Positions 22,763 to 62,017 of a DNA stretch of 64,000 nucleotides are shown here, one piece after another. Origin of the DNA: Gemmobacter caeni (GTDB lineage: Bacteria; Pseudomonadota; Alphaproteobacteria; Rhodobacterales; Rhodobacteraceae). The stretch's first letter is position 1. Every line of letters starts with the position of its first letter. The stretch covers positions 62,001 to 126,000 of the forward strand of contig NZ_QBKP01000007.1 of assembly GCF_003054195.1 (NCBI RefSeq), written 5' to 3'. A program made the position numbers and the translations under genes. The notes under the pieces are model-generated. The model was not told the DNA's origin and did not search any database. It worked only from the letters and a program-made list of their open reading frames with translations.

Positions 22763-22786
22763 CCTTTGCTTTCATGGCTGAACGGA

Positions 22787-24037: not shown

Positions 24038-24051
24038 ACCGGCCCCTGGCC

Positions 24052-25086: not shown

Positions 25087-25123
25087 GTCCTGCTCCGGCT
25101 GTAATGAATCGCTGGTATTGCAT

Positions 25124-25142
25124 ATTGTATCCAATATACAAT
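25124..25142. promoter_or_regulatory. probable GntR operator
   Basis: ATTGTAT-CCAAT-ATACAAT is a perfect 7+5+7 inverted repeat in the gap between the Ser/Thr racemase-family gene and the divergent GntR gene. FadR-type GntR proteins bind such TTGTAT/ATACAA palindromes. Confidence 0.65.
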
Positions 25143-25199
25143 TCAAGCTATAACCTGTTCCGCTGGCCAAAGTTTGGCGATCCGGGGCATATCGGGCCT

Positions 25200-45884: not shown

Positions 45885-46595
45885 TCAGGAAATTCGCGCG
45901 CCGGTCTCTTGCCGGATATCCGCGAGGGAAATCCTGCCCGTCGCCAGATCGGCCAGCATTGCGACATGCACTTCAAGAGCATCAATAACCGGAAAGCCCG
46001 GATCACGGCCATCGAACGCGAGCAGGAGGTCGGTTCCCGCCAAAGCCACGGCTTCGGCCCCTTGCTCCATCATTTCCCGGCCTGCATCGAAAAGCAACTT
46101 GCGGGTGGCCTCGTCGCACCGGCCTCCGACGGCCATGTCCTGATAAGCCTTGCCCACGGGTTCGAGGTTCTCAGGCAGCAGAACTCCGGTGCGCGCCATC
46201 TGATCGAAAAGCTTCGTGCGCATGGCTCTTGCGGTTCCCAGAAGCCCGACCTGCGAGTATCCTTTCCCGGCACAGTAAAGATCCAATGGCGTCACGGCCG
46301 AAAGCAGAGGCAAAGGGCTGAGGGCGCGTGTTTCTTCCCAGCAGAAAAGCGGGCCGATGGCGGTGATGCTTGCAAAATCAGCACCTGCCGCCCTGAGCCG
46401 GTGCAGCAGCGCGGCAAATATCTCTGCCTGTTCCTGTGCCCGACCGGCAAGGTTGTTCGCCAGAACCTCACGGATATTCGCTTCAACCATCGTCAGTTCC
46501 AGCCGGCACCCGCGATCAGCCGCGATCTGGTTCAAACGTTGATAGTAAACCACCGTCGCGGCAGGCCCCAGCCCGGTAATCAAGCCGACATGCAT
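45885..46595 (-). CDS. aspartate/glutamate racemase family protein lacking the catalytic cysteines
   Basis: 236 residues from the second ATG (the first adds seven). The start G-L-I-T-G-L-G-P-A-A-T-V-V-Y-Y is typical of aspartate racemases. The first active-site motif, normally P-C-N-T-A-H, reads T-A-I-G-P-L at about 78-83, and the second, normally G-C-T-E, reads A-G-T-D. Both nucleophilic cysteines are therefore gone (C85 is not in register). The protein is full length, so it is not simply a pseudogene; it may bind an amino acid or do another reaction. It lies leftwards of a LysR gene on the same strand. Confidence 0.82.
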   Translation of the reverse strand: MHVGLITGLGPAATVVYYQRLNQIAADRGCRLELTMVEANIREVLANNLAGRAQEQAEIFAALLHRLRAAGADFASITAIGPLFCWEETRALSPLPLLSAVTPLDLYCAGKGYSQVGLLGTARAMRTKLFDQMARTGVLLPENLEPVGKAYQDMAVGGRCDEATRKLLFDAGREMMEQGAEAVALAGTDLLLAFDGRDPGFPVIDALEVHVAMLADLATGRISLADIRQETGARIS

Positions 46596-46727: not shown

Positions 46728-47669
46728 TCAGGAAGCCGCCGGCTCCTTACCATCCGTCGGCGCATAGAGTGCCGTCGGCGCCAGCCGTTTGCGCATCTGT
46801 TCGGTCAGGGCCATCACCTGCGGCGAAAGAATCCGGTTTCTGCGTGTTATCAGGTGCACATAGACCGATTGCATGGCGGACGACACGATCCTTACGGCGA
46901 CCAGCTGACCGTTCGAAAGCTCCGACCTGACGCTGAATTCAGGCAGGACCGTCACCGCCCGGCGGGCGCAGGCGCTGCGGATCAGGACCGGGATCGAGTT
47001 GGAGACCAGCACCGGCGAAACAAGCTGACCACTATCCGCTGCCGCCAGATCGATCATCTGGCGGATACGGAACGCCTGCCCCATCAGGGCCAGCGGCTCG
47101 GCGCAAAGCTCGGCGATAGAAATGCTGGAGCGATCCGCAAGTGGATGCGCGGCATGCATGATTGCCTTCAGCGGAACCGCCGCACGAAACCGCGACACGA
47201 CCTGTGGATGCGACAGCGGGTGGAAACCAAGCCCGAAATGCACCTCATCCTCCAGCAGAAGTCGCACCATTTCGGTCGTGTCGGTGACGCTGAGAGACAG
47301 GGTAAAGCCCGGATAACCATCCATGAACTCGTCCAGCGTGCGATAGAGCGCTTCACCCAGAAAGCCTTCGCCGATGGCGAATTTGACATGCCCGGTCCGC
47401 GCCGCCGACAGGTCACGCAACTGGGCATTCAGCATCTCAAGGCTGCTGTGCCGGTTCCGGTAGTATTCAAGCACAGCATGGCCTGCTTCGGTCAGAACGA
47501 TTTCGCGGCGTCCGTGCTCGATCAGGGTGCTGCCGATCTCTCGTTCAAGCTGGGCGATCTGGCGGCTGATCGAGGACGGCGCCATCTCAAGGATTTCGCT
47601 GGCCTGACGCATCGAACCGCTGCGCCACGCCTCGTAAAGGAAGTGAATCCGCCGGTCATTGATCTGCAT
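46728..47669 (-). CDS. LysR family transcriptional regulator
   Basis: 313 residues from the ATG with a GGAGG site. The helix-turn-helix is S-M-R-Q-A-S-E-I-L-E-M-A-P-S-S-I-S-R-Q-I and the effector domain is of the CysB/CbbR type with V-K-F-A-I-G-E-G-F-L. It is divergent from the Rid/VOC/NhaC operon and a TTGC-N7-GCAA box sits in the gap, so it probably controls that operon and perhaps the racemase homologue downstream of it. Confidence 0.9.
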   Translation of the reverse strand: MQINDRRIHFLYEAWRSGSMRQASEILEMAPSSISRQIAQLEREIGSTLIEHGRREIVLTEAGHAVLEYYRNRHSSLEMLNAQLRDLSAARTGHVKFAIGEGFLGEALYRTLDEFMDGYPGFTLSLSVTDTTEMVRLLLEDEVHFGLGFHPLSHPQVVSRFRAAVPLKAIMHAAHPLADRSSISIAELCAEPLALMGQAFRIRQMIDLAAADSGQLVSPVLVSNSIPVLIRSACARRAVTVLPEFSVRSELSNGQLVAVRIVSSAMQSVYVHLITRRNRILSPQVMALTEQMRKRLAPTALYAPTDGKEPAAS

Positions 47670-47973
47670 GCCGCCTCCTGCTGCGCAGGTCTTCGCCCCG
47701 CGCAAACAGGCGCGCGCCACCATCCGCAAAGCGCAGGACAGGCCGGGTGAAGATCATGAGTCACCGATATTTGCGGTATCCATTTGTCATCAATGCAAAT
47801 TTGTTGCGTTTATTGCAATCTAAAACAGATAAACGTCGCATTGACTGCAACATGTTTTGAGCATGAAATGTATCAAGTCGCTGAATTTTCTGATCCTGCG
47901 GGCAAAGTTGCCCCGCAAGATCGGCAAACACCGCGGCCAAGAACAGCAAGAACATTCCAACAGCGAGGACGAC
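47670..47973. promoter_or_regulatory. divergent promoter region with LysR box
   Basis: This 304-base AT-rich gap holds a perfect LysR-type site TTGC-GTTTATT-GCAA (47804-47818, T-N11-A) and a second imperfect one, ATTTG-N9-CAAAT (47782-47800). An in-frame extension of the Rid-family gene reaches into it but lacks a ribosome-binding site. Confidence 0.6.
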
Positions 47974-48369
47974 ATGGAAACGCGAGAAATCAATCCCTGG
48001 TCTTGGCAAGAAGGCTTCGGCTTTGCCCATGGCCGCGAGGTCAGCGGGGCGACCCGCATCCTGACCCTCTCGGGCCAGTGTGCCACCGACGCCACCGGCG
48101 CACCGCAGCACAAGGGCGACATGGCGGCACAACTGGCCCTTTGCGTGGCCAATCTCGGTGAGGTCCTGGCAGCTGCCGGGATGACCTATGCCAATGTCAC
48201 GGGCATCCGGGTGCTGACGACCGACATGGATGCAACACTGGCCAACTGGGGCACGCTGATCGGGCCTTTCGCCGCGCTGGGGCACCGCCCGGCCAGCACG
48301 CTCGCCGGTGTGACCCGGCTGTTTTCGCCCGACCTTCTGGTCGAGGTCGAAGCCACCGCCTGCGCCTGA
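47974..48369 (+). CDS. Rid-family (YjgF/YER057c/UK114) protein
   Basis: 131 residues from an ATG preceded by GCGAGGACG. The fold signatures T-L-S-G-Q, A-Q-L-A-L-C-V-A-N-L-G-E-V-L-A-A-A-G and V-E-V-E-A-T-A are present. The arginine of canonical RidA (P-A-R-S), which binds the imino-acid carboxylate, is replaced: the motif reads P-A-S-T (106-109). True RidA hydrolyses 2-imino acids; members without this Arg have uncertain activity. It begins the operon leading to the three-subunit dehydrogenase. Confidence 0.85.
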   Translation: METREINPWSWQEGFGFAHGREVSGATRILTLSGQCATDATGAPQHKGDMAAQLALCVANLGEVLAAAGMTYANVTGIRVLTTDMDATLANWGTLIGPFAALGHRPASTLAGVTRLFSPDLLVEVEATACA

Positions 48370-48379
48370 GAAGCCCGAC

Positions 48380-48856
48380 ATGATCCGTGGCATTCACCAC
48401 CCCGGCATCACCACCGGCGATCTGGACCGGTCTCTGGCCTTCTATTGCGGTCTTCTGGGCTTCCGGGAGGTATCGGGTTTCGGCTGGGAGGCCGGAACCG
48501 AGATGTCCGCCTTCGCAGGCCGGATCATCGGCATTCCCGAGTCCACGGCAAGGTCGGTCCTGCTGCACGCAGGCAACGCCTTTCTGGAGGTCTTCGAATA
48601 CCGGACCCCGGTCTCGACCCGCAGCGATGATCGGAGCCTGTCACAGCAGGGCTTCGCGCATCTGTGCTTCGACAGCGATGACGTGATTGCCGATCACGCG
48701 AGACTGAGTGCGGCGGGCGTCACCTTCAACACGCCCCCGACGGATGTCGCCCCCATGCGGCTGTGCTTCTGCCGCGATCCCGACGGCAATTTCGTGGAAC
48801 TGCAACAGATCACCGATCCGGCCAGCGACATGGTGTTGCGGTCGGTTCAGGGCTGA
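48380..48856 (+). CDS. VOC family (glyoxalase/dioxygenase superfamily) protein
   Basis: 158 residues with two VOC half-modules: H-H-P-G-I-T-T-G-D-L-D-R-S-L-A-F-Y at the start, H-L-C-F-D-S-D-D in the middle and D-P-D-G-N-F-V-E-L at the end. Metal ligands by position are H6 or H7, the His in A-H-L-C-F and the terminal Glu. It may be a lyase, isomerase, dioxygenase or epimerase; sequence alone does not decide. It starts 10 bases after the Rid-family stop. Confidence 0.82.
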   Translation: MIRGIHHPGITTGDLDRSLAFYCGLLGFREVSGFGWEAGTEMSAFAGRIIGIPESTARSVLLHAGNAFLEVFEYRTPVSTRSDDRSLSQQGFAHLCFDSDDVIADHARLSAAGVTFNTPPTDVAPMRLCFCRDPDGNFVELQQITDPASDMVLRSVQG

Positions 48857-48964
48857 CAAACCGCCCTGCCAAACTGTTTCCGCAAGGGTTCCGCCGCTGG
48901 CATGATCGTGCCCACGGCGCGGGACCAGTCGTGCGACCATTTTCTGCAATGAAGGAGAAACTTC

Positions 48965-50422
48965 ATGAGCGAACCGATCCTGCGTTTTCGCGGCGGGCTG
49001 GCCCTCGCCTTTCTGCCGCCCGTCATCTTTCTGGTGATGTGCGTCCTGTTTTTCATCGTGTTCAAGGCCTTCGACATGACCGCCCTTGCAATGGGCGGCT
49101 TTGTCTCGCTGCTGGTGGGGGCGGTCTTCGCCCGCGACTATGGCAAGTTCTGGGAGCAGGTGCTGAAAGGCATCGGCAGTGAAACCTCTGTTGCCATCGT
49201 GGTGATCCTGTTTCTGGTTGGGATGATCTCGGCCATGATCAAGGCGACGGGCGTCGCCAATGGCTTTGTCTGGCTGGCCCAGGATATCGGCCTGAGTGCG
49301 GGCTATTACACCTTCTTCGTATTCATCGCAGTCAGTGTGGTTGCCATGGCGACCGGATCGTCGATCGGCACGATGTTTACCGCTTTCCCGATCTTCTACG
49401 CCGCCGGGCTGGCGATCGGCGCGCCCCCCGCGCTGCTGGCGGGGGCAATTCTGTCGGCGGCCATTCTGGGTGACAATCTCGCGCCCATCTCGGATACCAC
49501 CATCATTTCTTCCTCTAGCCAGCGATTCCGCAGCCGGTCTGCGGTCGCCGATATCGGTGGCGTCGTGCGGCACCGGGCGCGCTATGCCCTGACGGCCGCG
49601 CTGATTTCGGCCGCCCTGTTCCTGGTGATCGGCCAGTCGCAGACCGCCGATACCAGCATCGTCAGCCAGTTCAGCGCCACAGCTTCGGCAATGCCGCTGT
49701 TCATGCTGATCCCGGTGGCGATCATGCTGATCGTCGCAATGATCACGCGTGACATCTTCATGGCGGTGACGGTGGGTCTTGTCCTTGGTTCGGCAACCGG
49801 ACTTGCCACCGGACTCCTGACGCCCGCGATGATCGTAGGAGTCAAGGACGGTGCGCTGAGCGGCTTCCTGTACGATGGCGTGAACTCGATGCTGGGCACG
49901 GTGGCGCTGGTCCTTTCGGTCTTCGGCATCATGGGCGTGCTGCGCGGCGCGGGCGTCATGGAACTGATGGTGGACAAGATCACCTCGGGCAAACTGTCGT
50001 CGACGCCGCGTGGGGTTGAAACGGCCATTGGCCTTGGCGTCACGGCCACGACCCTGCTGTTCGGCGGCGTGAACTCGGCGGCCATGCTGACCTTCGGCCC
50101 GGTTGCCGACGAACTGGGCGCCCGTGTCGGCCTGCACCCCTATCGCCGGGCCAATGTGATGGATTGCTTCGCGCTGGGGCTGGCCTCCGTCGTGCCGGTG
50201 CTGAGCGCCTATCTGTTCATCGGCGCCCTGCTGACCTCGGGCTATGAAGCCGCCCCGGCGCTGTCCACCTTCGATCTGTTCCCGGTCACGCTCTACCCGC
50301 TGGTGCTGACCGCGATCATGATTCTGTCGGTGATCACCGGCTGGGGACGAACCTATGAGGCGAAGGACGGTTCCGCCGTCACCTCGCCGCAACCAGTCGC
50401 CGCTGGCAATCCGGCGAACTGA
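48965..50422 (+). CDS. NhaC-type Na+/H+ antiporter family transporter
   Basis: 485 residues with about 12 membrane helices. The family blocks A-T-G-S-S-I-G-T and G-D-N-L-A-P-I-S-D-T-T-I-I are intact. NhaC-family proteins exchange protons, sodium and in some cases organic anions. Within a catabolic operon it more likely imports the pathway substrate with sodium, but that is inference. A GAAGGAGAAAC site precedes the ATG. Confidence 0.88.
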   Translation: MSEPILRFRGGLALAFLPPVIFLVMCVLFFIVFKAFDMTALAMGGFVSLLVGAVFARDYGKFWEQVLKGIGSETSVAIVVILFLVGMISAMIKATGVANGFVWLAQDIGLSAGYYTFFVFIAVSVVAMATGSSIGTMFTAFPIFYAAGLAIGAPPALLAGAILSAAILGDNLAPISDTTIISSSSQRFRSRSAVADIGGVVRHRARYALTAALISAALFLVIGQSQTADTSIVSQFSATASAMPLFMLIPVAIMLIVAMITRDIFMAVTVGLVLGSATGLATGLLTPAMIVGVKDGALSGFLYDGVNSMLGTVALVLSVFGIMGVLRGAGVMELMVDKITSGKLSSTPRGVETAIGLGVTATTLLFGGVNSAAMLTFGPVADELGARVGLHPYRRANVMDCFALGLASVVPVLSAYLFIGALLTSGYEAAPALSTFDLFPVTLYPLVLTAIMILSVITGWGRTYEAKDGSAVTSPQPVAAGNPAN

Positions 50423-50455
50423 ACCTACTCTGACTGCAAGTGAAAGGACGTCGCT

Positions 50456-51385
50456 ATGGACCGGACAAGTGTGGACTGGACAGGATATATTCCCGCCATC
50501 ACCACCCCGTTCACCCGCAAGGGCCAGCTGGACCTCGAGGCCTTTGCCGGCCAGATGGACTGGCTGAGCACGGAAAGGATGCACGGGGTGATCCTGGCCG
50601 GGACCAGCGGCGAATGGTTCAGCCTGTCGGCCGGGGAACGGGCACAGCTCTTCGAGGCCGGGGCGCCCTATCGCAAGGCCGGGCTGACGGTGATCGGCGC
50701 CTGCAATGCCTTCACGGCGCAAGAGGCAATCCTGCATGCAAGGGCGGCGGAAAAGGCGGGGCTGGATGGTATCCTGCTGACGCCGCCGCCCTATGTCGTG
50801 CCGAACCGGGCAGAGATCGTGCAATTCTACCGCTCCGTCTCGGATGCCACCGACATTCCGATGACGGTATACAACTGGCCGCGCGGGTGTATCGTGGATA
50901 TGGACCCCGATCTTCTGGATGAGCTTGCGGACATTGAAAACGTGGTGGCCATCAAGAATTCCACCGGAAATTTCGCAGGCTTTCTTGCCGCGATGTACAG
51001 GGTCGAAGGGCGGGTGCGCTATTTCGGCCTGCCCACGAGCGAACTTGGCGTCGATCTGGCGCTTCTGGGGCATGGCGACGGGCTTATGGGGTCCGGCGGT
51101 GTGCTGGGTGCCGATCACCCCGATTTCTGGCGTGCGATTGCGGCGGGTGACCGCGACAGGGCAATCCGGCTTGGCGCTCGGGACCGGGTCGTCATGCAGG
51201 CCTGGTTCACACCGGATTACGGGGTGCGCTTCGGAAATCAGCAGGCGATCATGAAAACCGCCCTGCGTCTGCGCGGTGTGCGCGCCGGTTTCGTACGCGA
51301 ACCGCTGCTGGAACTGACACCCCCTGAAGTGCTCCGCATCGAGCAGACGTTGCGCGCGCTCGGGATTGAGACCGTGGCAATCTGA
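50456..51385 (+). CDS. dihydrodipicolinate synthase family lyase/deaminase
   Basis: 309 residues, DHDPS/NAL barrel. Schiff-base lysine K167 in V-V-A-I-K-N-S-T, tyrosine Y139 in M-T-V-Y-N-W-P, and G-T-S-G-E-W at 49-54 for substrate carboxylate binding. It differs clearly from the deaminase at 20.8 kb. It might cleave a 2-oxo acid by retro-aldol reaction or act as a pyrroline-hydroxycarboxylate deaminase. It is coupled by a 1-base overlap to the next gene, a flavin dehydrogenase subunit. Confidence 0.85.
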   Translation: MDRTSVDWTGYIPAITTPFTRKGQLDLEAFAGQMDWLSTERMHGVILAGTSGEWFSLSAGERAQLFEAGAPYRKAGLTVIGACNAFTAQEAILHARAAEKAGLDGILLTPPPYVVPNRAEIVQFYRSVSDATDIPMTVYNWPRGCIVDMDPDLLDELADIENVVAIKNSTGNFAGFLAAMYRVEGRVRYFGLPTSELGVDLALLGHGDGLMGSGGVLGADHPDFWRAIAAGDRDRAIRLGARDRVVMQAWFTPDYGVRFGNQQAIMKTALRLRGVRAGFVREPLLELTPPEVLRIEQTLRALGIETVAI

Positions 51386-52560
51386 TGGATGCGCCGTTTG
51401 ATGCTGTTGTGATCGGCGGGGGGCTTCTGGGCTGTGCAACAGCCTGGATGATCGCCCGCGAGGGCGGTCGCGTGCTGCTGGTCGAACGCGACCAGATCAA
51501 CCAGCACGCGTCGGGCAGAAATGCGGGCAGCCTGCATTTTCAGCTGGAATACCGCATGATCGACCGTGGCATCGAAGCGGCGCGGCAGGCGGCTGAGGCC
51601 ATGCCCCTTCATCTTGAGGCGGCGCGGCTTTGGGCCGCGCTGCCCCAGCTCTGCGGTGAGCCGGTCGAGGTCAGACAGACTGGCGGGCTGATGATCGCCG
51701 AGGATGCAGGGCAGGTCGCGCTGCTGGAGCAGAAGACAGAGATCGAACGCTCCTGGGGTCTGGACAACCAACTGATCGACCGCGCAGAGATCGACCGCAT
51801 CGCGCCCTATCTATCGGACCGGGTGATTGCGGCAGCGCATTGCCCGCTGGAGGGCAAGGCCGATGCCCGCACCGCCGCGCCGGCACTGGCCCGTGCCGCC
51901 CTGCGGCTGGGGGCGGAAATCCGGACAGGCTGCGCGATTACCGGCCTGTCGCGGCAGGGCGGGGTCTGGCAGGTGCAGTTGCAGGGCGACACAGCCCGCA
52001 CGGTGAGCGCCAGTGCAGTGGTGATCGCCGCCGGCGTCTGGACAACACAGCTGGGGCAGATGATGGGCGCGCATCTGCCGACGATCCCGCTGGCCCTGAC
52101 CATGACGGTTACAATGCGCATCCCCAAACTGGTTCCCCATCTGGTGCAGCATGCCGGGGGGAAACTGTCTCTGAAACAGGCGCTTGACGGCAATATCCTG
52201 ATTGGCGGCGGCTGGCCCGCGCGACTGCCGCTTTTGCCCGATGGCCAGCCCGATCTCGACACCAGGCCCGAGCTTCTCGCCTCGTCGCTTGCCGGGAATG
52301 CTGCCATGGCAATCCGGGTTCTGCCCGAACTGGGGAAGGTGCCGACGCTGCGCAGCTGGGTTGGCACCACGACGATCACACCCGACCAGTTGCCGCTGGT
52401 CGGCCCGGTGCCCGGATATCCCGGTGCCTTCGTCGCAACCGGCGGATCGGCCTTCACGCTTGGGCCCTGTTTCGCACAGGTCTTGGCCGATCTGATCGCG
52501 GGACGGCAGGCCAGCATGGATCTCACGAAATTCGACGCGGCCAGATATGGCAGGGGTTAG
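51385..52560 (+). CDS. FAD-dependent dehydrogenase, beta-like subunit (OoxB/HcnC/DHypDH type)
   Basis: 391 residues of the D-amino-acid-oxidase fold: V-V-I-G-G-G-L-L-G-C-A-T-A-W at the N-terminus and G-P-V-P-G-Y-P-G-A-F-V-A-T-G-G near the C-terminus. Proteins of this size beside a small 2Fe-2S protein and a larger FAD protein form heteromeric dehydrogenases for D-hydroxyproline, opines or glycine (HcnABC). It should carry the substrate-oxidising site. Confidence 0.88.
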   Translation: MDAPFDAVVIGGGLLGCATAWMIAREGGRVLLVERDQINQHASGRNAGSLHFQLEYRMIDRGIEAARQAAEAMPLHLEAARLWAALPQLCGEPVEVRQTGGLMIAEDAGQVALLEQKTEIERSWGLDNQLIDRAEIDRIAPYLSDRVIAAAHCPLEGKADARTAAPALARAALRLGAEIRTGCAITGLSRQGGVWQVQLQGDTARTVSASAVVIAAGVWTTQLGQMMGAHLPTIPLALTMTVTMRIPKLVPHLVQHAGGKLSLKQALDGNILIGGGWPARLPLLPDGQPDLDTRPELLASSLAGNAAMAIRVLPELGKVPTLRSWVGTTTITPDQLPLVGPVPGYPGAFVATGGSAFTLGPCFAQVLADLIAGRQASMDLTKFDAARYGRG

Positions 52561-52563
52561 GAC

Positions 52564-52848
52564 ATGACAGAAGCAAGGCGCATGACGGCGACCAGAGGCC
52601 CGGCTGTTACCTTCCATTTCGAAGGGCAGCCGGTGACGGGCTACTGCGGCGAAACGCTGGCAACGGCCCTTCTGGCTGCGCAGGTATCCGCTTTTGGCCT
52701 GACGCGCGAAGGAACTCCACGCCTGCCCTTCTGCAACATGGGCACCTGCTTTGACTGTGTTGTCACCGTCGATGGACAGAGGCTGGTGCGGGCCTGCCTG
52801 ACAGAGGCGCGCGACGGTCTTTGTGTCACCCGACACGAGGCGACATGA
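52564..52848 (+). CDS. (2Fe-2S)-binding gamma-like subunit
   Basis: 94 residues, ferredoxin-like fold of the HcnA/OoxC kind. The cluster cysteines are C57-x4-C62-x2-C65-x12-C78. An ATG at codon 7 is an alternative start. It would pass electrons between the flavins of the two larger subunits. It lies 3 bases after the beta-like gene and overlaps the next start by 4. Confidence 0.9.
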   Translation: MTEARRMTATRGPAVTFHFEGQPVTGYCGETLATALLAAQVSAFGLTREGTPRLPFCNMGTCFDCVVTVDGQRLVRACLTEARDGLCVTRHEAT

Positions 52849-54320
52849 TGATGGATCTCGCGGTCATAGGCGCAGGCCCCGCCGGCATGGCCGCCGCCAT
52901 CGCGGTGGCGGATGCCGGTTTTTCGGTACTGGTGGTCGACGAACAGGCGCGGGCAGGCGGGCAGATCTTTCGTCGCCCACCGCAGGAATGGGGCCAGCGG
53001 CACGGCAATTACCGCCCCTATTCCTGGGCCAAAGACCTGATCGAACGTTTCGAAGACCATCCGGGTATCACGACCGCCTTTCGAAGCACCGCGTTTGGGG
53101 TCTTGCGCGACCCCGACGACCACGCGCCGCTGCGGCTTGCCCTGCACACACCCGAAGGCGGGCGCCTTGTTGCGGCCCGCCGTCTGCTGATCGCAACCGG
53201 AGCGCATGACATGCCGGTCGCCTTCCCCGGCTGGACACTTCCGGGCGTGATGACGGCAGGGGCGGTACAGTCGCTTTTGAAAAGTCAGAAACTGCTGATG
53301 GGGCGCCGCCTTGTTCTCGCAGGGTCGCATCCGATCCTCCTGATCCTCGCCGAACAGTTGCTGGAGGCCCGCGCCGATATCGTCGAAATCGCCCTTGCCC
53401 GCGGCCTGCCGAATTTTGCCGAGATGATCGGCGCGGTCCCTGCCCTTCCCGGCCATGTCACCTTGTTTGCCGATGCGTTCCGGGCGATGGGCAAGATCAT
53501 TGCACGGGGGATACCCGTCACGCGCCGGACCATAATCGACGGGGTCGAAGGCACGACAGAGGTGACCGGGGTCCGGCTGGCGGAGGTCGATGAAGGCTGG
53601 ATGCGCACGGGGAAGCCGCGACATGTCGCCGCCGACCTTTTGGTGCTGGGCTATGGCTTCAACCCCTCGACCGAACTTGCGCGTCAGGCGGGTTGCAGGA
53701 TGCAATGGGCCTCGGATCTCGGTGGCTGGGTAGTGGCCCATGACCAGACGTTCCAGACTTCGGTCGAAGGCGTCTTTGTCGCCGGAGAGCCGACCGGGAT
53801 CGCCGGGGCCGAACGGTCCTGGGCCGAGGGGCAGATGGCCGGTCTGGGCATCGCCGCATCGCTTGGGGTTGCGGCAGATCCGACGCAGCGCAGGCGGGCG
53901 GGCCGCATTCTGGCACGGGCGGGCCGGTTTTCCCGCGTGATCCAGACCATGTTCGAACCGAAACGCGAGGCACTGGCACGGCTGTCAGGGGCTGAGGACG
54001 TGATCGTTTGCCGCTGCGAGCTGATCCGCAGCGGTGCGCTGGATGCAGCGCTGCGCAAGAACCCCTTCCTGTCCACCGCAAGCGCGGTGAAACTTGAATG
54101 CCGCACGGGTATGGGACCCTGTCAGGGCCGATATTGCGAAGGGACGGTGGCTGCTCGACTGGCCACCACACGCGGCGCAACCATCCCGGAGTCCGGCTTC
54201 TTCAATGCGAACTTCCCTGTGAAACCCGTTCCTCTCCAATCCCTGTGCGATCTGGAAAGATCACAAGAGGAGCACATCACGGCCACCACTCCCGCGACCT
54301 ACCCCGCCGCCAGTCGATAG
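52845..54320 (+). CDS. FAD/NAD(P)-binding dehydrogenase, alpha-like subunit (OoxA/HcnB/DHypDH type)
   Basis: 491 residues; the first of three adjacent ATGs is chosen because it overlaps the upstream stop. N-terminal I-G-A-G-P-A-G-M-A for FAD, a second nucleotide-binding region, and a C-terminal BFD-like domain with C-R-C-E, then C-R-T-G-M-G-P-C-Q-G-R-Y-C for another Fe-S cluster. It completes the three-subunit dehydrogenase. Its end overlaps the converging kdpE gene by about 22 bases. Confidence 0.9.
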   Translation: MMMDLAVIGAGPAGMAAAIAVADAGFSVLVVDEQARAGGQIFRRPPQEWGQRHGNYRPYSWAKDLIERFEDHPGITTAFRSTAFGVLRDPDDHAPLRLALHTPEGGRLVAARRLLIATGAHDMPVAFPGWTLPGVMTAGAVQSLLKSQKLLMGRRLVLAGSHPILLILAEQLLEARADIVEIALARGLPNFAEMIGAVPALPGHVTLFADAFRAMGKIIARGIPVTRRTIIDGVEGTTEVTGVRLAEVDEGWMRTGKPRHVAADLLVLGYGFNPSTELARQAGCRMQWASDLGGWVVAHDQTFQTSVEGVFVAGEPTGIAGAERSWAEGQMAGLGIAASLGVAADPTQRRRAGRILARAGRFSRVIQTMFEPKREALARLSGAEDVIVCRCELIRSGALDAALRKNPFLSTASAVKLECRTGMGPCQGRYCEGTVAARLATTRGATIPESGFFNANFPVKPVPLQSLCDLERSQEEHITATTPATYPAASR

Positions 54321-54979
54321 CCTACGCCCGGCTCGGTGAAGATCCACCGCGGATCGGCGGCATCGTCGCCCAGCTTGGCGCGCAGCTGGCGGATGTAGAC
54401 CCGCAGATACTGGCTGTCCCCGGCATGGGCAGGCCCCCAGATCGCCCGGAGGATCATGTCCTGCGTGACCAGCCGCCCGGCATGGCTGGCAAGAAGCCAC
54501 AGGAGGTCGAATTCCTTGCGGGTCAGCCGCAGATCCTCGCCGGAAAGGCTGGCGCGATGGTCTGCGGCGTCAATTTCCAGCGGGCCAAGCGTCAGGCACG
54601 CGCTGCCGCCCTCGACCGCGCGGTCGCGCAGCAGGCCGCGCAGCCGCGCCAGCAATTCGCCTGTTGAAAATGGTTTGGTGACGTAATCCTGCGCGCCGGC
54701 ATCCAGTGCGGCGATCTTGCCCGCCTCGTCGTTGCGCACCGACAGCACCAGAACCGGCATCTGCGTCCACTCCCGCACGCCGCGCAGCACGCTGATCCCG
54801 TCAGCATCCGGCAGACCGAGGTCAAGGATCATCGCGGCCGGAGCTTCTTTCGCGGCCAGGGCCAGCCCCTCGTGCGCCGTTGCCGCTTCGGACACCAGAT
54901 GCCCCTCGGCCTCCAGCGCGATGCGCAGGAAACGGCGGATCGGAGCCTCGTCCTCGACGATCAGGATGCGGGCGGTCAT
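54299..54979 (-). CDS. kdpE: KdpE response regulator
   Basis: 226 residues: receiver domain with phosphorylated D53 (I-L-D-L-G-L-P-D), conserved Lys in Y-V-T-K-P-F, and a C-terminal OmpR-type winged helix (L-T-R-K-E-F-D-L-L-W, V-Y-I-R-Q-L-R-A-K-L). It activates kdp transcription under low potassium. It is the last gene of the leftward operon and starts within the end of kdpD (4-base overlap). Confidence 0.95.
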   Translation of the reverse strand: MTARILIVEDEAPIRRFLRIALEAEGHLVSEAATAHEGLALAAKEAPAAMILDLGLPDADGISVLRGVREWTQMPVLVLSVRNDEAGKIAALDAGAQDYVTKPFSTGELLARLRGLLRDRAVEGGSACLTLGPLEIDAADHRASLSGEDLRLTRKEFDLLWLLASHAGRLVTQDMILRAIWGPAHAGDSQYLRVYIRQLRAKLGDDAADPRWIFTEPGVGYRLAAG

Positions 54980-57654
54980 GCGGATACCTCGGGATTCCAG
55001 AGCGGCAGATCAAGCGTGATCCGCGTGCCATGCCCGTCAGGATGAACGGCTTCGGCCCGGATACGCCCGCCATGGGCTTCGACGATCCCCTTGCAGATGG
55101 CAAGGCCCAGCCCGGTGCCGGACTGCCCTCCATCGCCCTGATCGGCGCGCCAGAACATGTCGAACACCTGTGTTTCGGCGCCCGGAGGCAGGCCGGGTCC
55201 GTCATCCTCGATCACCAGCACGGCGCGGCCACGCTCGGTCCGGGCCGACATGCGGATCGGGCTGCGGGGCCCGGCATATTTGCGCGCATTGTCGAGAATA
55301 TTGACCAGAACCTGTTCGATCAGCACCGGGTCCACCTCGGCCGGGGCCATGTCAGCGGGGATCGCCACCTCAACAGGCTGATCACGCAGCGCACCTCGCA
55401 GTCGATGGCGGGCTGCACCGGCCAGTTCACGCAAATCGACCGTGGTGGTGCGCGGCTTCAGCGCGCCGTGACCCAGCCGGGTCATGTCCAGCAGGTTCTG
55501 GATATAGCGGTCCAGCCGTTCACCCTCTTCGCGAATGGTATCGACCAACTGGGCGCGGCCATCGGGCGCCAGCCCGGCCTGATCCAGCCCCTCAGCTGCG
55601 CCGAGGATTGACACCAGCGGCGTGCGCAGATCGTGGCTGACCGAGGAAAGCAGCGCGACGCGCAGGCGCTCTGTCTCGCTCAGCACCCGGCTTTGCGCCA
55701 GATCATCGGCCAGCCGCACCCGCTCCAGCGCCAGCGCGACCTGATCGGCCAGCGCCTCGACCAGATGCCGGTCGCCCGGGGCGGGTTCACGCCCGTCGGC
55801 ATAAGTCAGCCCCAGCACACCGATACGTCGCTCTGCCGCCGAAAGCGGCAGGAACAGCCAGCGCGAGGCAGGCAAGGTGCCCGATCCCCGCCCCGCCGGT
55901 TCACCCTTGTCATATGCGTAACGCGCAGCCGAAGTTTCGCGCGGCTCCATCCGGTCTTCGGGCGGGAAGGCACCGACAACGGTCAGTTGCCCCGCATCAT
56001 CGGGCAGCAGCAGGATGGTGTCGCATTCCAGCACGGCAGCGACATGGCTGACCGCTGCCCAGACCACATCATCGACCGAAGCCGCCGCCGCCGCGCGGCG
56101 TGAGAAATCATAAAGCTTGCGGGTGCGGTCAGAAATCGCCCGTTGCAGGATGGCCCGGTCCCGCAGCCGGGCCGCCAGATTGCCGGTCAGGATCGAGGCC
56201 GCCAGGAACAGCAGCAGCGTCAGGAACTGGCCCTGGCTCCAGATCCTCAATGAGAAGCGCGGCTCGGTGAAAAGGACATTGTAGACCAGAAAACTGAGCA
56301 CGGCCGCCGCGACAGAGGGCCAGCGCCCAAGCCGGGCTGCGACAGCGACGACCATGGTCATATACAGCAGCGACAGGCTGAAAACCGGGATAAAGCGGTC
56401 GGCCAGAACCGCAAGCAGCGTGGTTGCCGCCACCGCCCCGGCCACCAGCGCGAAGTTGCGCCCGGCATCGGGCAAAGAAGGGCTCGCCGCGCGTGGGGTC
56501 CGGCGGCCGGGGCTATCCTCGTCGGTCACCAGCGTAAGCTCGAACCGGGTCGCACCGCGCAGAAGACCCGCCACCACCTGTTCCTGCGGACGGGGCATCA
56601 GGCGGCGGGCCAGAAACCCACGGATGGGCGGACGCGGAACCACAATCCGGCGAACATTGTGGCGGCGGGCAAAATCCAGCAACTCTGCCTCTGCCGCGCC
56701 GTCGGCCTGCAGAACAGTCACCTCGGCGCCCAGCCGTTCGGCAAGCCGCAGGGCGGGGCTGGTGCTGTCTTCGGCGCGGGCCTCGGCGCGCAGGCTGGTC
56801 AGGGCGACGGCCAGCCACTCCACCCGCGCCCGATCGGCCGAACGTTTGGCGATCCGAACCGCGTCGCGCCCGATCGAACCTTCCGGCAGCACGACGAGAA
56901 TGCGCTCCTGCGTGGGCCACGGCCCCTCGATGGCATGGACGGCCATATGCTCCTGCAACTGGGCATCGACCCGGTCGGCTGCCGTCCGCATCGCCAGTTC
57001 GCGCAGCGCCGTCAGATTGCCCTTGGCGAAGAAATTCGCCACAGCCCGCGCGGCCTGATCCTGAACATAGACCTTCCCCGCGCGCAGGCGGGCAATCAGT
57101 TCGTCCGGCGAAAGATCGATCAGCGCGATTTCGTCGGCGGCTTCCAGCACCGAATCCGGCACTGTCTCGCGCACGCGTACCCCGGTGATCCGGGCCACGG
57201 TGTCATTGAGTGTCTCGACATGCTGCACGTTCAGGGTGGTATAGACGTCGATCCCCGCCGCCAGCACATCCTCGACATCCTGCCAGCGCTTGTCATGCTG
57301 CCCGCCGGACAGGTTGGAATGCGCCAGCTCGTCGATCAGCGCCAGATCAGGCCGCCTTGCGATCAGCGCCTCGGTGTCCATTTCCTGAAGGATGCGGCCA
57401 TTGTGATAGACCGGACGGCGGGGCAGCACGTCCAGCCCGCGCAACATCGCCTCTGTCTCGGCGCGGCCATGGGTCTCGACCACGCCGACCAGCACTTTGG
57501 TGCCCTCGGCCGCACGGCTGCGCGCGGCCTGCAGCATGGCATAGGTCTTGCCGACCCCGGGCGCCGCACCCAGAAAGACTTTGAGATGCCCCCGGCCTTC
57601 GCGGCGGGCGGCGGGCAGAAGGGCCTCTGGCGTGGGGCGGGCGGGGTCGGGCAA
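54976..57654 (-). CDS. kdpD: KdpD sensor histidine kinase
   Basis: 892 residues from a TTG start supported by a GAGGAG site; the frame runs further upstream into kdpC without a sensible start. Domains: KdpD N-domain with Walker A F-L-G-A-A-P-G-V-G-K-T (about 27-37), a universal-stress-like domain (about 225-350), four membrane helices (about 400-510), a GAF domain, then HisKA with S-V-S-H-D-L-R-T-P-L and an ATPase domain with N-I-L-D-N-A and G-T-G-L-G-L-A-I. All catalytic boxes are intact. Confidence 0.94.
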   Translation of the reverse strand: MPDPARPTPEALLPAARREGRGHLKVFLGAAPGVGKTYAMLQAARSRAAEGTKVLVGVVETHGRAETEAMLRGLDVLPRRPVYHNGRILQEMDTEALIARRPDLALIDELAHSNLSGGQHDKRWQDVEDVLAAGIDVYTTLNVQHVETLNDTVARITGVRVRETVPDSVLEAADEIALIDLSPDELIARLRAGKVYVQDQAARAVANFFAKGNLTALRELAMRTAADRVDAQLQEHMAVHAIEGPWPTQERILVVLPEGSIGRDAVRIAKRSADRARVEWLAVALTSLRAEARAEDSTSPALRLAERLGAEVTVLQADGAAEAELLDFARRHNVRRIVVPRPPIRGFLARRLMPRPQEQVVAGLLRGATRFELTLVTDEDSPGRRTPRAASPSLPDAGRNFALVAGAVAATTLLAVLADRFIPVFSLSLLYMTMVVAVAARLGRWPSVAAAVLSFLVYNVLFTEPRFSLRIWSQGQFLTLLLFLAASILTGNLAARLRDRAILQRAISDRTRKLYDFSRRAAAAASVDDVVWAAVSHVAAVLECDTILLLPDDAGQLTVVGAFPPEDRMEPRETSAARYAYDKGEPAGRGSGTLPASRWLFLPLSAAERRIGVLGLTYADGREPAPGDRHLVEALADQVALALERVRLADDLAQSRVLSETERLRVALLSSVSHDLRTPLVSILGAAEGLDQAGLAPDGRAQLVDTIREEGERLDRYIQNLLDMTRLGHGALKPRTTTVDLRELAGAARHRLRGALRDQPVEVAIPADMAPAEVDPVLIEQVLVNILDNARKYAGPRSPIRMSARTERGRAVLVIEDDGPGLPPGAETQVFDMFWRADQGDGGQSGTGLGLAICKGIVEAHGGRIRAEAVHPDGHGTRITLDLPLWNPEVSA

Positions 57655-57664
57655 GGCGCGCTCC

Positions 57665-58243
57665 TCAGTTCGTGCCAGCAGGCGGCAGCGGCAGGGCGGC
57701 GTCAAGGGCCAGATTGAGCCGCAGCACATGCACACGCGGCTGGCCGTAAAGCCCCAGCCAGGGCGCCTCGGTCGCGGCCGTGATCAGCGCCAGCACATCG
57801 GCCACCGGCACACCCCGCGCGGCGGCGATCCGGGCCGCCTGCCCCTGCGCATTTTCCGGCGACACATGCGGATCAAGCCCCGAGCCAGAGGCTGTCACCG
57901 CATCAACCGGCGGCGATACACCGTTTTCCGCCTGCCATGCCGCGCGCCGCGCGGCAATCGCGTCGCGCAAACCGGCCGAGGCAGGACCAAGGTTCGATGC
58001 ACCCGAAGGCATGGCCCCGTAATCGCTGGCCGACGGACGGGGGTGCAGGTACTCAGGCCGCGCGAAGGCCTGCCCGACCAGATCAGACCCGACAGGCAGA
58101 CCATCGCGGAACACGAGACTGCCGCTTGCGGCGCCGGGTGCGACAAGCCGCGCAATCCCGGTCATGGCCAGCGGATAGGCCAGCCCGGTCAGCAGGGTCA
58201 TGGCCAGCAGCAGGACGAAAGCAGGGCGAAGTTGGGTCAGCAT
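57665..58243 (-). CDS. kdpC: KdpC potassium-transporting ATPase subunit
   Basis: 192 residues, one N-terminal membrane helix (about 8-30) and a periplasmic domain with the family pieces R-P-S-A-S-D-Y, S-G-L-D-P-H-V-S and L-G-L-Y-G-Q-P-R-V-H-V-L-R-L-N. It stabilises the KdpAB complex. Confidence 0.95.
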   Translation of the reverse strand: MLTQLRPAFVLLLAMTLLTGLAYPLAMTGIARLVAPGAASGSLVFRDGLPVGSDLVGQAFARPEYLHPRPSASDYGAMPSGASNLGPASAGLRDAIAARRAAWQAENGVSPPVDAVTASGSGLDPHVSPENAQGQAARIAAARGVPVADVLALITAATEAPWLGLYGQPRVHVLRLNLALDAALPLPPAGTN

Positions 58244-58256
58244 GGCAAATCTCCGT

Positions 58257-60278
58257 TCAGGCCAGACCGAGGGCGGACACGGCCATGTCGATGGCCTTGA
58301 TCCCCAGAAAGGGCACGATCAGACCGCCGAGGCCGTAGATCGTCAGGTTCCGGCGCAACAGCGCCGCCGCACTGCCGGGCGCATATTTCACCCCGCGCAG
58401 CGCCAGGGGGATCATCGCCACGATGATCAGCGCATTAAAGATCACCGCCGCCAGAATGGCGCTTTGCGGGCTGGACAGACCCATAACGTTCAGCACACCC
58501 AGCCCCGGATAGGCGGCGACAAAGATCGCCGGCAGGATGGCGAAATATTTGGCGACATCATTGGCGATGCTGAAGGTGGTCAGCGCGCCCCGGCTGATCA
58601 GCAGTTGCTTGCCCACCAGCACCACCTCGATCAGTTTGGTCGGATCACTGTCAAGGTCGATCAGGTTCGCCGCCTCCTTCGCGGCTGGTGTGCCCGAGTT
58701 CATCGCAACACCCACATCGGCCTGCGCAAGCGCGGGCGCATCGTTCGAACCGTCGCCACACATTGCCACCAGCCGCCCGCCCGCCTGTTCCCGGCGGATA
58801 TACTCCAGCTTCATCTCGGGCGTGGCCTCGGCCAGAAAATCATCTACCCCGGCCTCGGCGGCGATGGCAGCGGCAGTCAGGGGGTTGTCGCCGGTAATCA
58901 TCACCGTGCGGATCCCCATGGCACGCAGTTCGGCGAACCGTTCGCGCACGCCGGGTTTCACCACGTCCTTCAGATGGATGGCACCCAGAAGCCGGTCGCC
59001 CTCGGCCACCAGCAAGGGTGTCCCGCCGGAGCGCGCGATTTCATCGACCCGCGCCCGCAGCGCCGCATCCAGCCGGTGCCCGACAAACCGCTCGACGGCA
59101 TCCACGGCACCCTTGCGCAGTGTTCGGCCAGGCAGATCAACACCAGAAAGCCGTGTCTCGGCGCTGAACAGGACCGGCTGTCCCCCGGCCTCCGCAGCGG
59201 CCAGTTCCGGCTGCATCCGGCGCGCGAGGTCTACGATGCTTTTGCCCTCGGGCGTCTCATCCGCCAGAGATGCCAGACAGGCTGCGTGCACCAGATCCCG
59301 CTCCGCCACGCCCTGTGCGGGAAGGAAGGCATCAGCCATGCGGTTGCCGAAGGTGATCGTGCCTGTCTTGTCCAGCAACAGCGTATCCACATCGCCCGCC
59401 GCCTCGACCGCGCGCCCGGATTTCGCGATGACATTGGCGCGCACCAGACGGTCCATCCCCGCGATGCCGATAGCTGACAAAAGCCCGCCGATCGTCGTCG
59501 GGATCAGGGTCACGAAAAGAGCGGCCAGCGTAACCACCGGGATCACGATGCCCGAGTAGCGTGCGAAAGGGTCCAGCGTCACGGTGACGATGAGAAAGAT
59601 CAGTGTCAGCCCGCACAGCAGGATGTTCAGGGCGATCTCGTTCGGCGTCTTCTGACGTTCCGCACCCTCGACCATCGCGATCATCCGGTCCAGAAAGCTT
59701 TTGCCCGGCTCTGCCACGATGCGCAGGATCAGGCTGTCAGACACGATCCTTGTGCCGCCGGTGACCGAGGAGCGGTCGCCCCCGCTCTCACGGATCACCG
59801 GGGCGCTTTCGCCGGTGATGGCGCTTTCATCGACCGAGGCGACGCCCCGGATCACCTCGGCATCGGTGGGGATCAGGTCGCCCGCATCGACGCGAACAAG
59901 CTGTCCCGCGCGCAAAGTGGCCGATGGCACAAGGCTTGGCTCAGGGCTATCCTCGCTGGCCAGCAGTTTCACCATGGTTTCGGCCTTGGTGGCCCGCAGG
60001 CTGTCGGCGCGTGCCTTGCCGCGCCCTTCGGCCAGGGCTTCGGCAAAATTGGCGAAGATCACGCAGACCCAGAGCCAGAAGGCGATTTGCAGCGTGACAC
60101 CCCAACCGGGCGCGCCGGTCATCAGGTCACGCAGCGCAAGAATTGTGGTCAGCGCCGCAGTAACAGCGGTCACGCAGATCACCGCATTGCGGATCAGGGC
60201 GCGGGGGTGAAGCTTGACAAACGCGGTCTTCAGCGCCGCCGGATACAGCCCGGACCGGGTGGTGGACGGGATGGACAT
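58257..60278 (-). CDS. kdpB: KdpB potassium-transporting P-type ATPase
   Basis: 673 residues from the ATG; the frame extends into kdpA but the start here fits the family. The phosphorylated D303 in L-L-L-D-K-T-G-T, the T-G-E-S actuator loop (about 155-158) and [10 protein letters not shown] hinge motif are intact. It hydrolyses ATP to drive potassium uptake through KdpA. Confidence 0.95.
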
Positions 60279-60298
60279 GGGATTGAATCCTGTCAGGG

Positions 60299-60324
60299 AA
60301 AAAGGCGGCCGCGTCCCGGCCGCC
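60299..60324 (-). terminator. terminator-like stem-loop between kdpA and kdpB
   Basis: An 8-bp perfect GC stem (60304-60311 with 60317-60324, loop of five) is followed on the coding (minus) strand by five T residues, all in the 53-bp gap after kdpA. It resembles an intrinsic terminator placed inside the operon and may reduce read-through to kdpBCDE. Confidence 0.6.
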
Positions 60325-60331
60325 CGGAATG

Positions 60332-62017
60332 TCAATCGCTTTGGCCAGCAGTCAGCGCGGCCTGTTCGGCGATGGGACCAAGCGCCAGAACCGGAAAGAA
60401 AGTCAGGGCGCCCAGCACCAGCACAGTCAGCACCAGCAGCAGGACAAACAGCGGCCCATGCGTCGGGAAGGTGCCTGCCGTCACCGGAGCGCGGGATTTC
60501 ACGACCAGCGATCCGGCGATGGCCAGCATCGGCAGGATGATCGCATAGCGCCCCAGCAGCATGAGAAGACCAAGCGCCGTCGTTTGCCAAGGCGTTGCCG
60601 CACCAAACCCGGCGAAGGCCGAACCGTTGTTCCCCACGGCCGAGGAATAGGCGTAGAGGATCTCGCTCAGTCCATGCGGACCGGCTTCTTGCAGCGAGAC
60701 CAGCGCAGCGGGGACCGTGGCCGAAAGCGCCGCCCCGCCCAGGATGCCCAGCGGCATCGACAGAAAGGCGAGCATGGCCAGCGTGACCTCGCGCCCCTCG
60801 ATCTTGCGACCCAGATATTCCGGCGTACGTCCCACCATCAGGCCCGCCAGAAACACAGCCAGCACGACGTAAAGCAATATACCGTAAAGCCCTGCCCCCA
60901 CGCCGCCAAAAATCACCTCGCCCACCTGCATGTTGACCAGTTGCACCAGCCCCGACAGCGGCATGAAACTGTCATGCATTGCATTGACGGACCCGTTCGA
61001 GGCGGCGGTGGTCGCGGCCGCCCAGAGGGCCGAGAGGCCCGCACCAAAGCGCAGTTCCTTGCCTTCCATGTTCGGCCCAGCGTTCAGCACGGGATTTCCT
61101 GCCGTCTCGGCCCACCAGATGATCAGAAGCCCGGCAACGAACATGAGGCCCATAGCCGCGAAGATCGCCCGGCCCTGCCGCCGATCCGCCGCCATGCGCC
61201 CGAACAGGAAGCAGAAGGCGACCGGGATCAGCAGGATCGAAAAGCATTGCAGCATGTTCGACAAGATCGTGGGATTCTCGAACGGATGGGCGGAGTTCAC
61301 ACCGAAGAAACCGCCGCCATTCGTGCCCAGTTGCTTGATTGCAACCTGCGCCGCCACCGGCCCTCGCGGGAGTATCTGCCCGGCGCCCTCCAGTGTGGTG
61401 ACATTGGCAGCCCCCTGTAAAGTCTGCGGCACGCCTTGCAGCATCAGCGCAAATCCGAGGATCGCGGCCAGCGGCAAAAGCACATAAAGCACCGACCGCG
61501 TCATGTCGGCCCAGAAATTGCCCAGCCCCGCACCTTTCGGCCCGGTAAAGCCCCGGATGACCGCCACACCCACCGCCATGCCAGTCGCCGCAGACACGAA
61601 GTTCTGCACCGTCAGCCCGGCCATCTGCGACAGATAGCTCAGCTGTGTCTCGCCGGAATAAGCCTGCCAGTTGGTGTTGGTGACGAAGCTGATCGCGGTA
61701 TTGAAGGCCAGATCCGGGGGCATGCCGGAGATGGCGGCGGGGTTCAGCGGCAGCACGCCCTGCAAGCGCAGGATCGCGTAAAGCGCAAGAAACCCGAGGC
61801 CGTTGAACGCCAGAACCGCCAGCGCATAAGCCTTCCAGCCCTGCGCATTGTCGGGCCGGATGCCCGCCAGCCGGTAGAACCTCTGTTCCACCGGCGCCAG
61901 AACCGGCGACATCAGGTTGCGGCGCCCGGCAAAGACGCCGGACATATGCGCGGCCAGCGCCCAGCCCGCCGCAGTCAGAACCGCGCAAAACAGGGCATAT
62001 CCAAGAAGATCCTGCAT
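60332..62017 (-). CDS. kdpA: KdpA potassium-transporting ATPase channel subunit
   Basis: 561 residues with about 10-12 membrane helices. The four selectivity-filter-like loops are visible, for instance [22 protein letters not shown] and A-V-G-N-N-G-S-A-F. It binds and conducts potassium. It begins 10 bases after kdpF. Confidence 0.95.

Follow-up and report, generated by a model that had tools for sequence, protein, structure and literature searches.

A conserved mobile dehydrogenase-lyase operon in Gemmobacter caeni and its possible role in converting oxidized tryptophan to pyruvate and isatin

Introduction

The Lhp pathway of Pseudomonas and Streptomyces coelicolor (LhpBEF with LhpC; SCO6289-6293) combines an alpha-beta-gamma dehydrogenase with a neighbouring enzyme of the dihydrodipicolinate synthase (DHDPS) family. 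The same pairing occurs in an operon of Gemmobacter caeni that we analysed in a stretch of 64,000 nucleotides of contig NZ_QBKP01000007.1 (positions 62,001 to 126,000; hereafter the window, in which all coordinates are given). However, this operon contains neither an epimerase nor a ketoglutarate semialdehyde dehydrogenase, and its regulator and carrier are different. The flavin-containing opine dehydrogenase OdhABC likewise has three subunits in the order beta-gamma-alpha, but no DHDPS-family partner is mentioned in the available part of its description (PMC4575208). The 4-hydroxy-2-oxoglutarate (HOG) aldolase HOGA1 shares with the DHDPS-family enzyme of the operon (DapA) the superfamily, the GxxGE loop, the Tyr, the Lys and a Ser two residues after the Lys (Lys+2), but belongs to another pathway. 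The iad pathway of auxin degradation proceeds from isatin to anthranilate, and genes for subunits of the indolepyruvate oxidoreductase (IOR) type are its markers (PMC9613470 and PMC12633357, available parts). There, isatin originates from indole-3-acetic acid after a Rieske-type oxygenase, whereas in our proposal it would come from an amino acid by retro-aldol cleavage.

The operon consists of rid, VOC, nhaC, dapA and the dehydrogenase genes beta, gamma and alpha, in this order on the forward strand (47974-54320), with a divergent LysR gene, according to the list of open reading frames and Pfam (Table 1). The listed NCBIfam matches of its genes are all under the cut-off, so that the operon has no assigned function, and no published description of the gene combination was found in the open-access literature searched. 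Conservation, gene families, the regulator box and a box-linked isatin hydrolase in Novosphingobium humi are computed results. The catabolic gene block is real, conserved, mobile and unnamed. We infer its reactions, its substrate and the import of that substrate, and tentatively propose that the operon serves the import, oxidation and retro-aldol cleavage of dioxindolylalanine to pyruvate and isatin, a reading that we consider possible but short of probable.

Conservation and distribution of the gene block

A scan of species-level genomes with DapA gave 24 loci, of which 22 (“close” loci) have a DapA 72-87% identical to that of the window. The dapA-beta-gamma-alpha block, hereafter the cassette, was present in all 22 of them, with matches to beta, gamma and alpha behind DapA; in locus L014 it was in broken pieces. 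The hosts include Rhodobacteraceae, Leucobacter, Rhodococcus, Streptomyces and Microbacterium. An initial annotation, made by a model from the letters of the window alone, had suggested gene-neighbourhood conservation as a check, and with the dehydrogenase-lyase block found in every close locus the combination is not a chance one. The nhaC gene adjoins the block in 15 of the 22 loci (on the opposite strand in L019, and cut by the contig end in L011). In the other seven, from Microbacterium and Agromyces, a peptide-type ABC transporter, an amidohydrolase, a DUF885 protein and a SnoaL-like protein are encoded upstream instead (Pfam check on L024). LysR, rid and VOC in the order of the window occur at four loci (L010, L012, L014 and L016), with LysR matches of 59-78% identity at the same position (fragmented in L014), and a fifth alpha-proteobacterial locus, L011, begins inside nhaC. 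Actinobacterial loci carry a gene read by eye as an XRE regulator. More distant DapA copies are found on Bradyrhizobium plasmids (65% identical) and in Embleya (56%), Novosphingobium (45-50%) and genome G629 (44-45%).

In a concatenated tree of 18 copies, those of Rhodobacteraceae were sister to Leucobacter (support 1.00) and nested in the actinobacterial copies, while the Bradyrhizobium copies branched deep; some inner nodes were weak, and a tree of DapA only left Leucobacter unresolved. The tree points to horizontal transfer, and the cassette is a horizontally moving unit with a distribution across phyla. It is rare. DapA was found in 5 of 295 family genomes (E <= 1e-40), four of the five being only 36-39% identical, in 2 of 398 phylum genomes (E <= 1e-75) and, for the Streptomyces phylum, in 3 of 396 genomes (E <= 1e-60); the genome of the query or the centre genome is included in every count.

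Some single loci differ in state. The cassette of Brucella cytisi (L014) lies in several broken pieces as if decaying. On plasmid pS05J of Bradyrhizobium elkanii (L034), a 25-kb stretch with the cassette has no nhaC, SSS or SBP5 match; upstream of the cassette, at a distance of 11 kb, is a VOC gene that shares 70% identity with that of Novosphingobium, and NF006101 is partially matched on this plasmid. DapA genes are grouped with DAO-type dehydrogenase genes at other loci too (L063, L064, L067, L068, L069, L071 and L072). Several of these groups also contain hydantoinase, DUF3830, oxoprolinase or amino-acid ABC genes, and together they probably represent a larger unexplored family with other substrates.

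The DapA-family enzyme

The window DapA shows the hallmarks of the DHDPS/NAL superfamily, namely the GxxGE loop, the Schiff-base Lys and the catalytic Tyr. Lys167, Tyr139 and the sequence GTSGE are found in 12 of 12 close copies aligned, and the loop (residues 49-53), Tyr139, Lys167 and Ser169 (Lys+2) are kept in 15 of 15 aligned sequences, two of which have Thr for Ser51. Since the carboxylate loop, Tyr139 and Lys167 are preserved, a 2-oxo or 2-imino acid is expected as the substrate. The predicted structure matched DHDPS and NAL in fold, and the model (mean pLDDT 71, loops poorly modelled) confirms only the fold. The enzyme does not appear to be DHDPS proper: it scored 116.5 bits against the NCBIfam dapA model (cut-off 206) and has Gly where a Streptomyces protein, labelled DHDPS by ourselves, has the Arg corresponding to Arg138 of DHDPS. 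The Lys+2 residue of human HOG aldolase, Ser198, faces the 4-hydroxyl in a model, and the corresponding residue of E. coli DHDPS is Ala163 (PMC3188589, available part). Ser169 is present in the window DapA, but Ser77-Asn78 of HOGA is replaced by Thr50-Ser51, so the residues named in that source do not identify it as a HOG aldolase. The Lys+2 residue is Phe in three LhpC-like proteins and Ser in other DHDPS relatives too, and for the latter reason Ser169 only mildly favours a retro-aldol reaction.

The LysR box and its proposed regulon

The gap between LysR and rid contains a strict TTGC-N7-GCAA box. One such match per 64-kb window is about the chance rate, but its position in this gap is not. 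The initial annotation had noted a clear box beside the divergent LysR gene; it is real, and a site of this type was found in the LysR gap of seven of the seven LysR-linked loci compared, including the distant sphingomonad-type loci L036 and L070. Sphingomonad-type DNA (eight partly overlapping stretches totalling 168,680 bases, about 8 kb counted twice) gave 14 strict matches, 11 of them within 13,955 intergenic bases, where about 2.6 in total and 0.2 in intergenic DNA are expected by arithmetic with equal base frequencies and no shuffling.

In the 25-kb cassette stretch of the N. humi plasmid, all four strict boxes are intergenic and precede a DUF3311-SSS-isatin hydrolase-IOR operon, LysR/dapA, VOC-Rid and TonB-GH3, the VOC-Rid box being the weakest case, four bases after the alpha stop codon. 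The boxes of Novosphingobium resinovorum precede TonB-GH3-LysR, dapA and VOC-Rid, and those of G629 lie before dapA and between an amidohydrolase operon and a second DUF885 gene. L082 and L085 each have one extra intergenic match without clear meaning, and three matches are intragenic. Pfam confirmed GH3 in both Novosphingobium species, TonB in N. humi, DUF885 and the amidohydrolase in G629, and HyuAB in L015; DUF3311 and, in N. resinovorum and G629, TonB were named by eye. A search for an actinobacterial XRE operator common to the cassette and the isatin genes gave palindromes upstream of nhaC in Streptomyces and Rhodococcus ruber and one weak site next to a thiamine pyrophosphate (TPP) enzyme gene of R. 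ruber, none of it convincing. Palindromic GTGC-type sites were seen by the XRE-like gene in the gap before nhaC in L018, L020, L021, L022, L023 and L030.

Isatin genes near the cassette

By sequence, the “cyclase” behind the first N. humi box is an isatin hydrolase, matching the solved isatin hydrolase 5nnb with 353 bits. It lies about 3 kb from the cassette in one gene run with a carrier and IOR alpha and beta, of which beta exceeds a subfamily cut-off and alpha is under its equivalog cut-off. In R. ruber, the isatin hydrolase is 7 kb downstream of the cassette on the same strand, in a run that follows rid and encodes a P450, a ferredoxin (by eye), a ferredoxin reductase, an FAD oxidoreductase, the isatin hydrolase and the TPP enzyme. 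Except for one small ORF, this run is on the strand of the cassette; a benzoate-CoA-ligase-like gene and a monooxygenase gene (PF00724 + FAD_binding_3) follow on the opposite strand. The distance in Leucobacter chromiisoli is about 13 kb.

With the N. humi isatin hydrolase as the query, and a plasmid without its genome (W01) set aside, seven of 17 host genomes besides N. humi encode an isatin hydrolase at E <= 1e-75 (G000, G629, G678, G679, G681, G683 and G684); a link to the box was seen only for that of N. humi. In N. humi, G629 and R. ruber, a match to NF006101, a monooxygenase model named salicylyl-CoA 5-hydroxylase in NCBIfam, is no more than 15 kb away from the cassette. Anthraniloyl-CoA monooxygenases, we presume, have the build of NF006101. 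An IOR alpha homologue occurs in 5 of 17 (G000, G629, G679, G689 in pieces, and W02, the source of the query). The window genome has isatin hydrolase twice, once beside IOR genes and a StyA-like protein, the IOR alpha there being 61% identical to that of N. humi, and it encodes an NF006101 protein on the same contig. The strain could therefore use isatin. A gene group of this genome (L099; C12:128000-145000) resembles a module that turns indole into isatin: it combines a StyA-like monooxygenase and a VOC protein with isatin hydrolase and IOR alpha, and IOR beta, a flavin reductase and MarR were recognized there by eye.

Proposed pathway

We suggest that the NhaC-like carrier would import a gamma-hydroxy-alpha-amino acid, which the alpha-beta-gamma flavo-iron-sulfur dehydrogenase would oxidize to a 2-imino or 2-oxo acid. 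The DapA-family enzyme would then form a Schiff base through Lys167 and cleave the 2-oxo acid by a retro-aldol reaction into pyruvate and a carbonyl compound. Such a route needs no semialdehyde dehydrogenase, which matches the absence of this enzyme from the operon. In the most specific version, proposed on chemical grounds, the carbonyl product would be isatin and the substrate dioxindolylalanine (3-hydroxy-2-oxindol-3-yl-alanine, a tryptophan oxidation product), whose 2-oxo acid corresponds formally to an aldol adduct between isatin and pyruvate. Isatin hydrolase would open isatin to isatinate, leading to anthraniloyl-CoA; some hosts encode these steps beside the cassette, others at another place. 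Dioxindolylalanine would be released from conjugates by the hydrolases for lactams, amides, peptides and glycosides that surround the cassette in other hosts.

The broader idea, a mobile pathway for oxidatively damaged tryptophan (dioxindolylalanine, free or from peptides and conjugates) that joins amino-acid catabolism to the isatin-anthranilate route through a new DHDPS-superfamily aldolase, is rather doubtful. Under this idea, a single LysR box in sphingomonads would govern outer-membrane uptake, a glycosidase, an amidohydrolase or peptidase, the carrier, oxidation, cleavage and the opening of isatin as one regulon. In the open-access literature searched, titles and abstract openings showed no bacterial catabolism of dioxindolylalanine, and no paper on oxindolylalanine catabolism was found. 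If the isatin proposal is right, a conserved branch of the “dihydrodipicolinate synthase family proteins” would gain a function, damaged tryptophan a route of breakdown, bioactive isatin a source outside auxin and indole metabolism, and a Rid protein without the catalytic arginine a defined pathway context. Even with a wrong substrate, the cassette is a discrete, mobile and testable unit that the family libraries used do not name.

The isatin case is strongest in N. humi and R. ruber and weaker for the lineage of the window, and several observations weigh against it. The window operon itself contains no isatin gene, the isatin loci of the window genome lack a strict TTGC-N7-GCAA, and the strict-box search gave no sign of co-regulation between these loci and the operon. 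A close intact isatin hydrolase is missing from 10 of the 17 host genomes: the Microbacterium, Agromyces, two Streptomyces, two Leucobacter, GH2-2 and G1027 genomes had no match at E <= 1e-20, while the copy in G739 is 47% identical and that in G689 is broken. In favour of the isatin case, compared with backgrounds of 37 of 198 family genomes (E <= 1e-75, G000 included) and 19 of 246 actinobacterial genomes (E <= 1e-69), isatin hydrolase is enriched among family hosts (3/4 versus 36/197; Fisher’s exact test, p = 0.024) and actinobacterial hosts (3/9 versus 19/245; p = 0.034), but these are single, uncorrected tests on few genomes. Also in its favour, 11 of the 17 hosts or plasmids have a match to NF006101 over the cut-off, against none of the 14 control genomes that were compared, four of which match below it. 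As a further caution, the gene caller from which intergenic status was taken misses some small genes. Ser169 is also present in relatives with other neighbours, and DapA of the sphingomonad type shares only 44-50% identity with that of the window, so its substrate may differ. The breakdown of indole and of auxin makes use of isatin modules too, so their proximity may reflect a common aromatic lifestyle.

Alternative explanations

The window also contains a hydroxyproline region (19115-25170), with an LhpI-type cis-3-hydroxyproline dehydratase, a 4-hydroxyproline epimerase and a trans-3-hydroxyproline dehydratase over NCBIfam cut-offs, an LhpC-like protein and a single-subunit DadA-like protein. 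The initial annotation held the operon to be distinct from it, and would have yielded to a redundant hydroxyproline pathway in which the dehydrogenase acts on cis-4-hydroxy-D-proline and DapA is a Pyr4H2C deaminase. The gene families are those of S. coelicolor SCO6289-6292 (PMC6608401, available part), and the epimerase is at hand in the window genome. However, over the full alignment DapA is 19% identical to the LhpC-like protein of the window and 23% to those of Sulfitobacter and Streptomyces (27-32% over local BLAST stretches), which does not place it in the LhpC lineage, and it has Ser at Lys+2 where three LhpC-like proteins have Phe. Low identity alone cannot exclude an LhpC-type function, because the LhpC-like proteins of the window and Streptomyces are only 27% identical to each other. 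The beta subunit is 25-28% identical to that of the Streptomyces hydroxyproline-type operon. Among 14 cassette hosts searched (the window genome plus those of 13 out of the 22 close loci), seven have a match to PF05544, the proline-racemase family, and seven have none at E <= 1e-10, so a 4-hydroxyproline 2-epimerase is not generally available. The PF05544 genes of two Streptomyces hosts lie away from the cassette, and in one of these hosts (L079) a separate operon of racemase, LhpC-like, alpha, gamma and beta genes resembles SCO6289-6293 (PMC6608401, available part). Sequence divergence and the missing epimerase thus weaken the idea of a hydroxyproline duplicate, which we consider improbable, and the two systems are best treated as distinct. 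A pathway for opines or N-alkylated amino acids, of the Oox/Nox/Odh type, would explain the beta-gamma-alpha order, which is that of OdhB-C-A (PMC4575208, available part), but a DapA-family enzyme with an intact 2-oxo-acid site, fixed in 22 of 22 loci, would be superfluous for opine cleavage, and this pathway is very improbable.

The same dehydrogenase and retro-aldol reactions could also act on another gamma-hydroxy amino acid, for example 4-hydroxyglutamate, giving pyruvate and glyoxylate, with the isatin genes as mere neighbours or a feature of one sub-branch. This is unlikely, although the Ser at Lys+2 resembles HOG aldolase (PMC3188589, available part) and most host genomes lack the close isatin hydrolase as described above. 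Oxoprolinase-family HyuAB genes beside the cassette in L015 (Pfam) and L071 (tblastn only) and amidohydrolases in L015, L024-L029 and L032, nearest to Xaa-Pro dipeptidase and ochratoxin-type enzymes, also fit and suggest lactam or peptide precursors. On the other hand, the window DapA has Ser51 in place of HOGA Asn78, the residue that faces the distal carboxylate in the model, and the common box of N. humi ties the cassette to isatin hydrolase. That link would be left unexplained, too, if the pathway concerned tryptophan but DapA formed no isatin, for instance by dehydrating or deaminating an oxidized side chain while the isatin genes belong to a parallel indole route. Such a pathway seems quite unlikely; for it speaks the R. 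ruber P450, whose best NCBIfam match is a cyclodipeptide-synthase-associated P450 and whose sixth is 4-nitrotryptophan synthase, all below cut-off. The recurring amidohydrolase, DUF885 and peptide ABC genes were also considered as a clue to a peptide precursor, which they fit, but they name no amino acid. In G629, a small gene next to the amidohydrolase, initially taken to be SnoaL-like, gave no match in Pfam.

Rid and VOC proteins

The initial annotation had suggested that the Rid protein could process the imine. As an ordinary imine hydrolase the protein is unsupported, because the conserved Arg is replaced in nine of nine Rid proteins aligned, by Ser in the four Rhodobacteraceae copies and by Asn or Gln in the other five, and we rejected this function. 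The window protein has Ser where UK114 has Arg, and so lacks the catalytic arginine of RidA and Rid1-3. In the available part of PMC4433059, this Arg is called essential, a Rid7 protein without it showed no hydrolysis of the imine on which it was assayed, and Ser takes its place in about 10% of RidA proteins. The Rid4-Rid7 subfamilies also lack the catalytic arginine and are of unknown function according to the same source. In the VOC protein, the His/Glu/His/Glu positions, which presumably bind a metal, are kept in four of four copies aligned. Rid and VOC may possibly handle the imine or its tautomer.

Gene organization and neighbouring genes

Genes of the operon are separated by 3 to 108 bases or overlap by 1 and 4 bases, the latter where alpha starts within gamma. 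Pfam bore out the gene set that the initial annotation had listed on the forward strand (Rid, VOC, NhaC, DHDPS-lyase and the three-subunit dehydrogenase). Its start of the region, 47669, is in fact where the divergent LysR gene has its start codon; rid starts with the ATG at 47974, the listed ORF opening upstream at 47857. Its reading as an amino-acid catabolic operon with an alpha-beta-gamma dehydrogenase, a LysR regulator and a box holds, except for the role of Rid, and we agree with it that no gene names the substrate. The adjacent DAO beta, Fer2_4 gamma and Pyr_redox_2+BFD alpha genes form an LhpBEF/Odh-type set by Pfam. The carrier scored 71.2 bits against TIGR00931 (NhaC Na+/H+ antiporter equivalog; cut-off 370), and is thus not assigned to this equivalog.

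Table 1 Features of the operon and its surroundings in the window.
Feature	Position	Strand	Basis
LysR-family regulator, divergent	46728..47669	-	HTH_1 + LysR_substrate (Pfam)
LysR-type box TTGCGTTTATTGCAA	47804..47818	.	sole strict TTGC-N7-GCAA in 64 kb
Second conserved half-site CATTGAYTGCAA	47839..47850	.	aligned in five gaps (window, L010, L012, L016, L014); degenerate in L010
Rid-family protein without conserved Arg	47974..48369	+	PF01042 (Ribonuc_L-PSP); Ser at Arg position
VOC-family protein, probably metal-binding	48380..48856	+	PF00903 (Glyoxalase)
NhaC-like carrier, probably substrate import	48965..50422	+	PF03553 (Na_H_antiporter)
DHDPS/NAL-superfamily lyase (YNWP clade), proposed retro-aldolase	50456..51385	+	PF00701
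Dehydrogenase beta subunit (DAO, FAD)	51385..52560	+	PF01266, 223 bits
Dehydrogenase gamma subunit ([2Fe-2S], Fer2_4)	52564..52848	+	PF13510
Dehydrogenase alpha subunit (Pyr_redox_2 + BFD-like [2Fe-2S])	52845..54320	+	PF07992, PF04324 (Fer2_BFD)
Asp/Glu racemase-family gene behind LysR; membership of the system doubtful	45885..46595	-	PF01177

The nearest NCBIfam models of the racemase-family gene behind LysR are cysteate racemase and amino acid racemase, far under cut-off. A tblastn search of other cassette loci did not find it in any of them, and its use as a guide to the substrate was dropped because the gene is not conserved. On the other side of the operon, a kdp potassium-transport operon occupies 54299-62017 on the reverse strand, with KdpA and KdpB over the cut-off and KdpD- and KdpE-like proteins under it; the convergent kdpE-like gene ends at 54299, within the 3′ end of the alpha gene.

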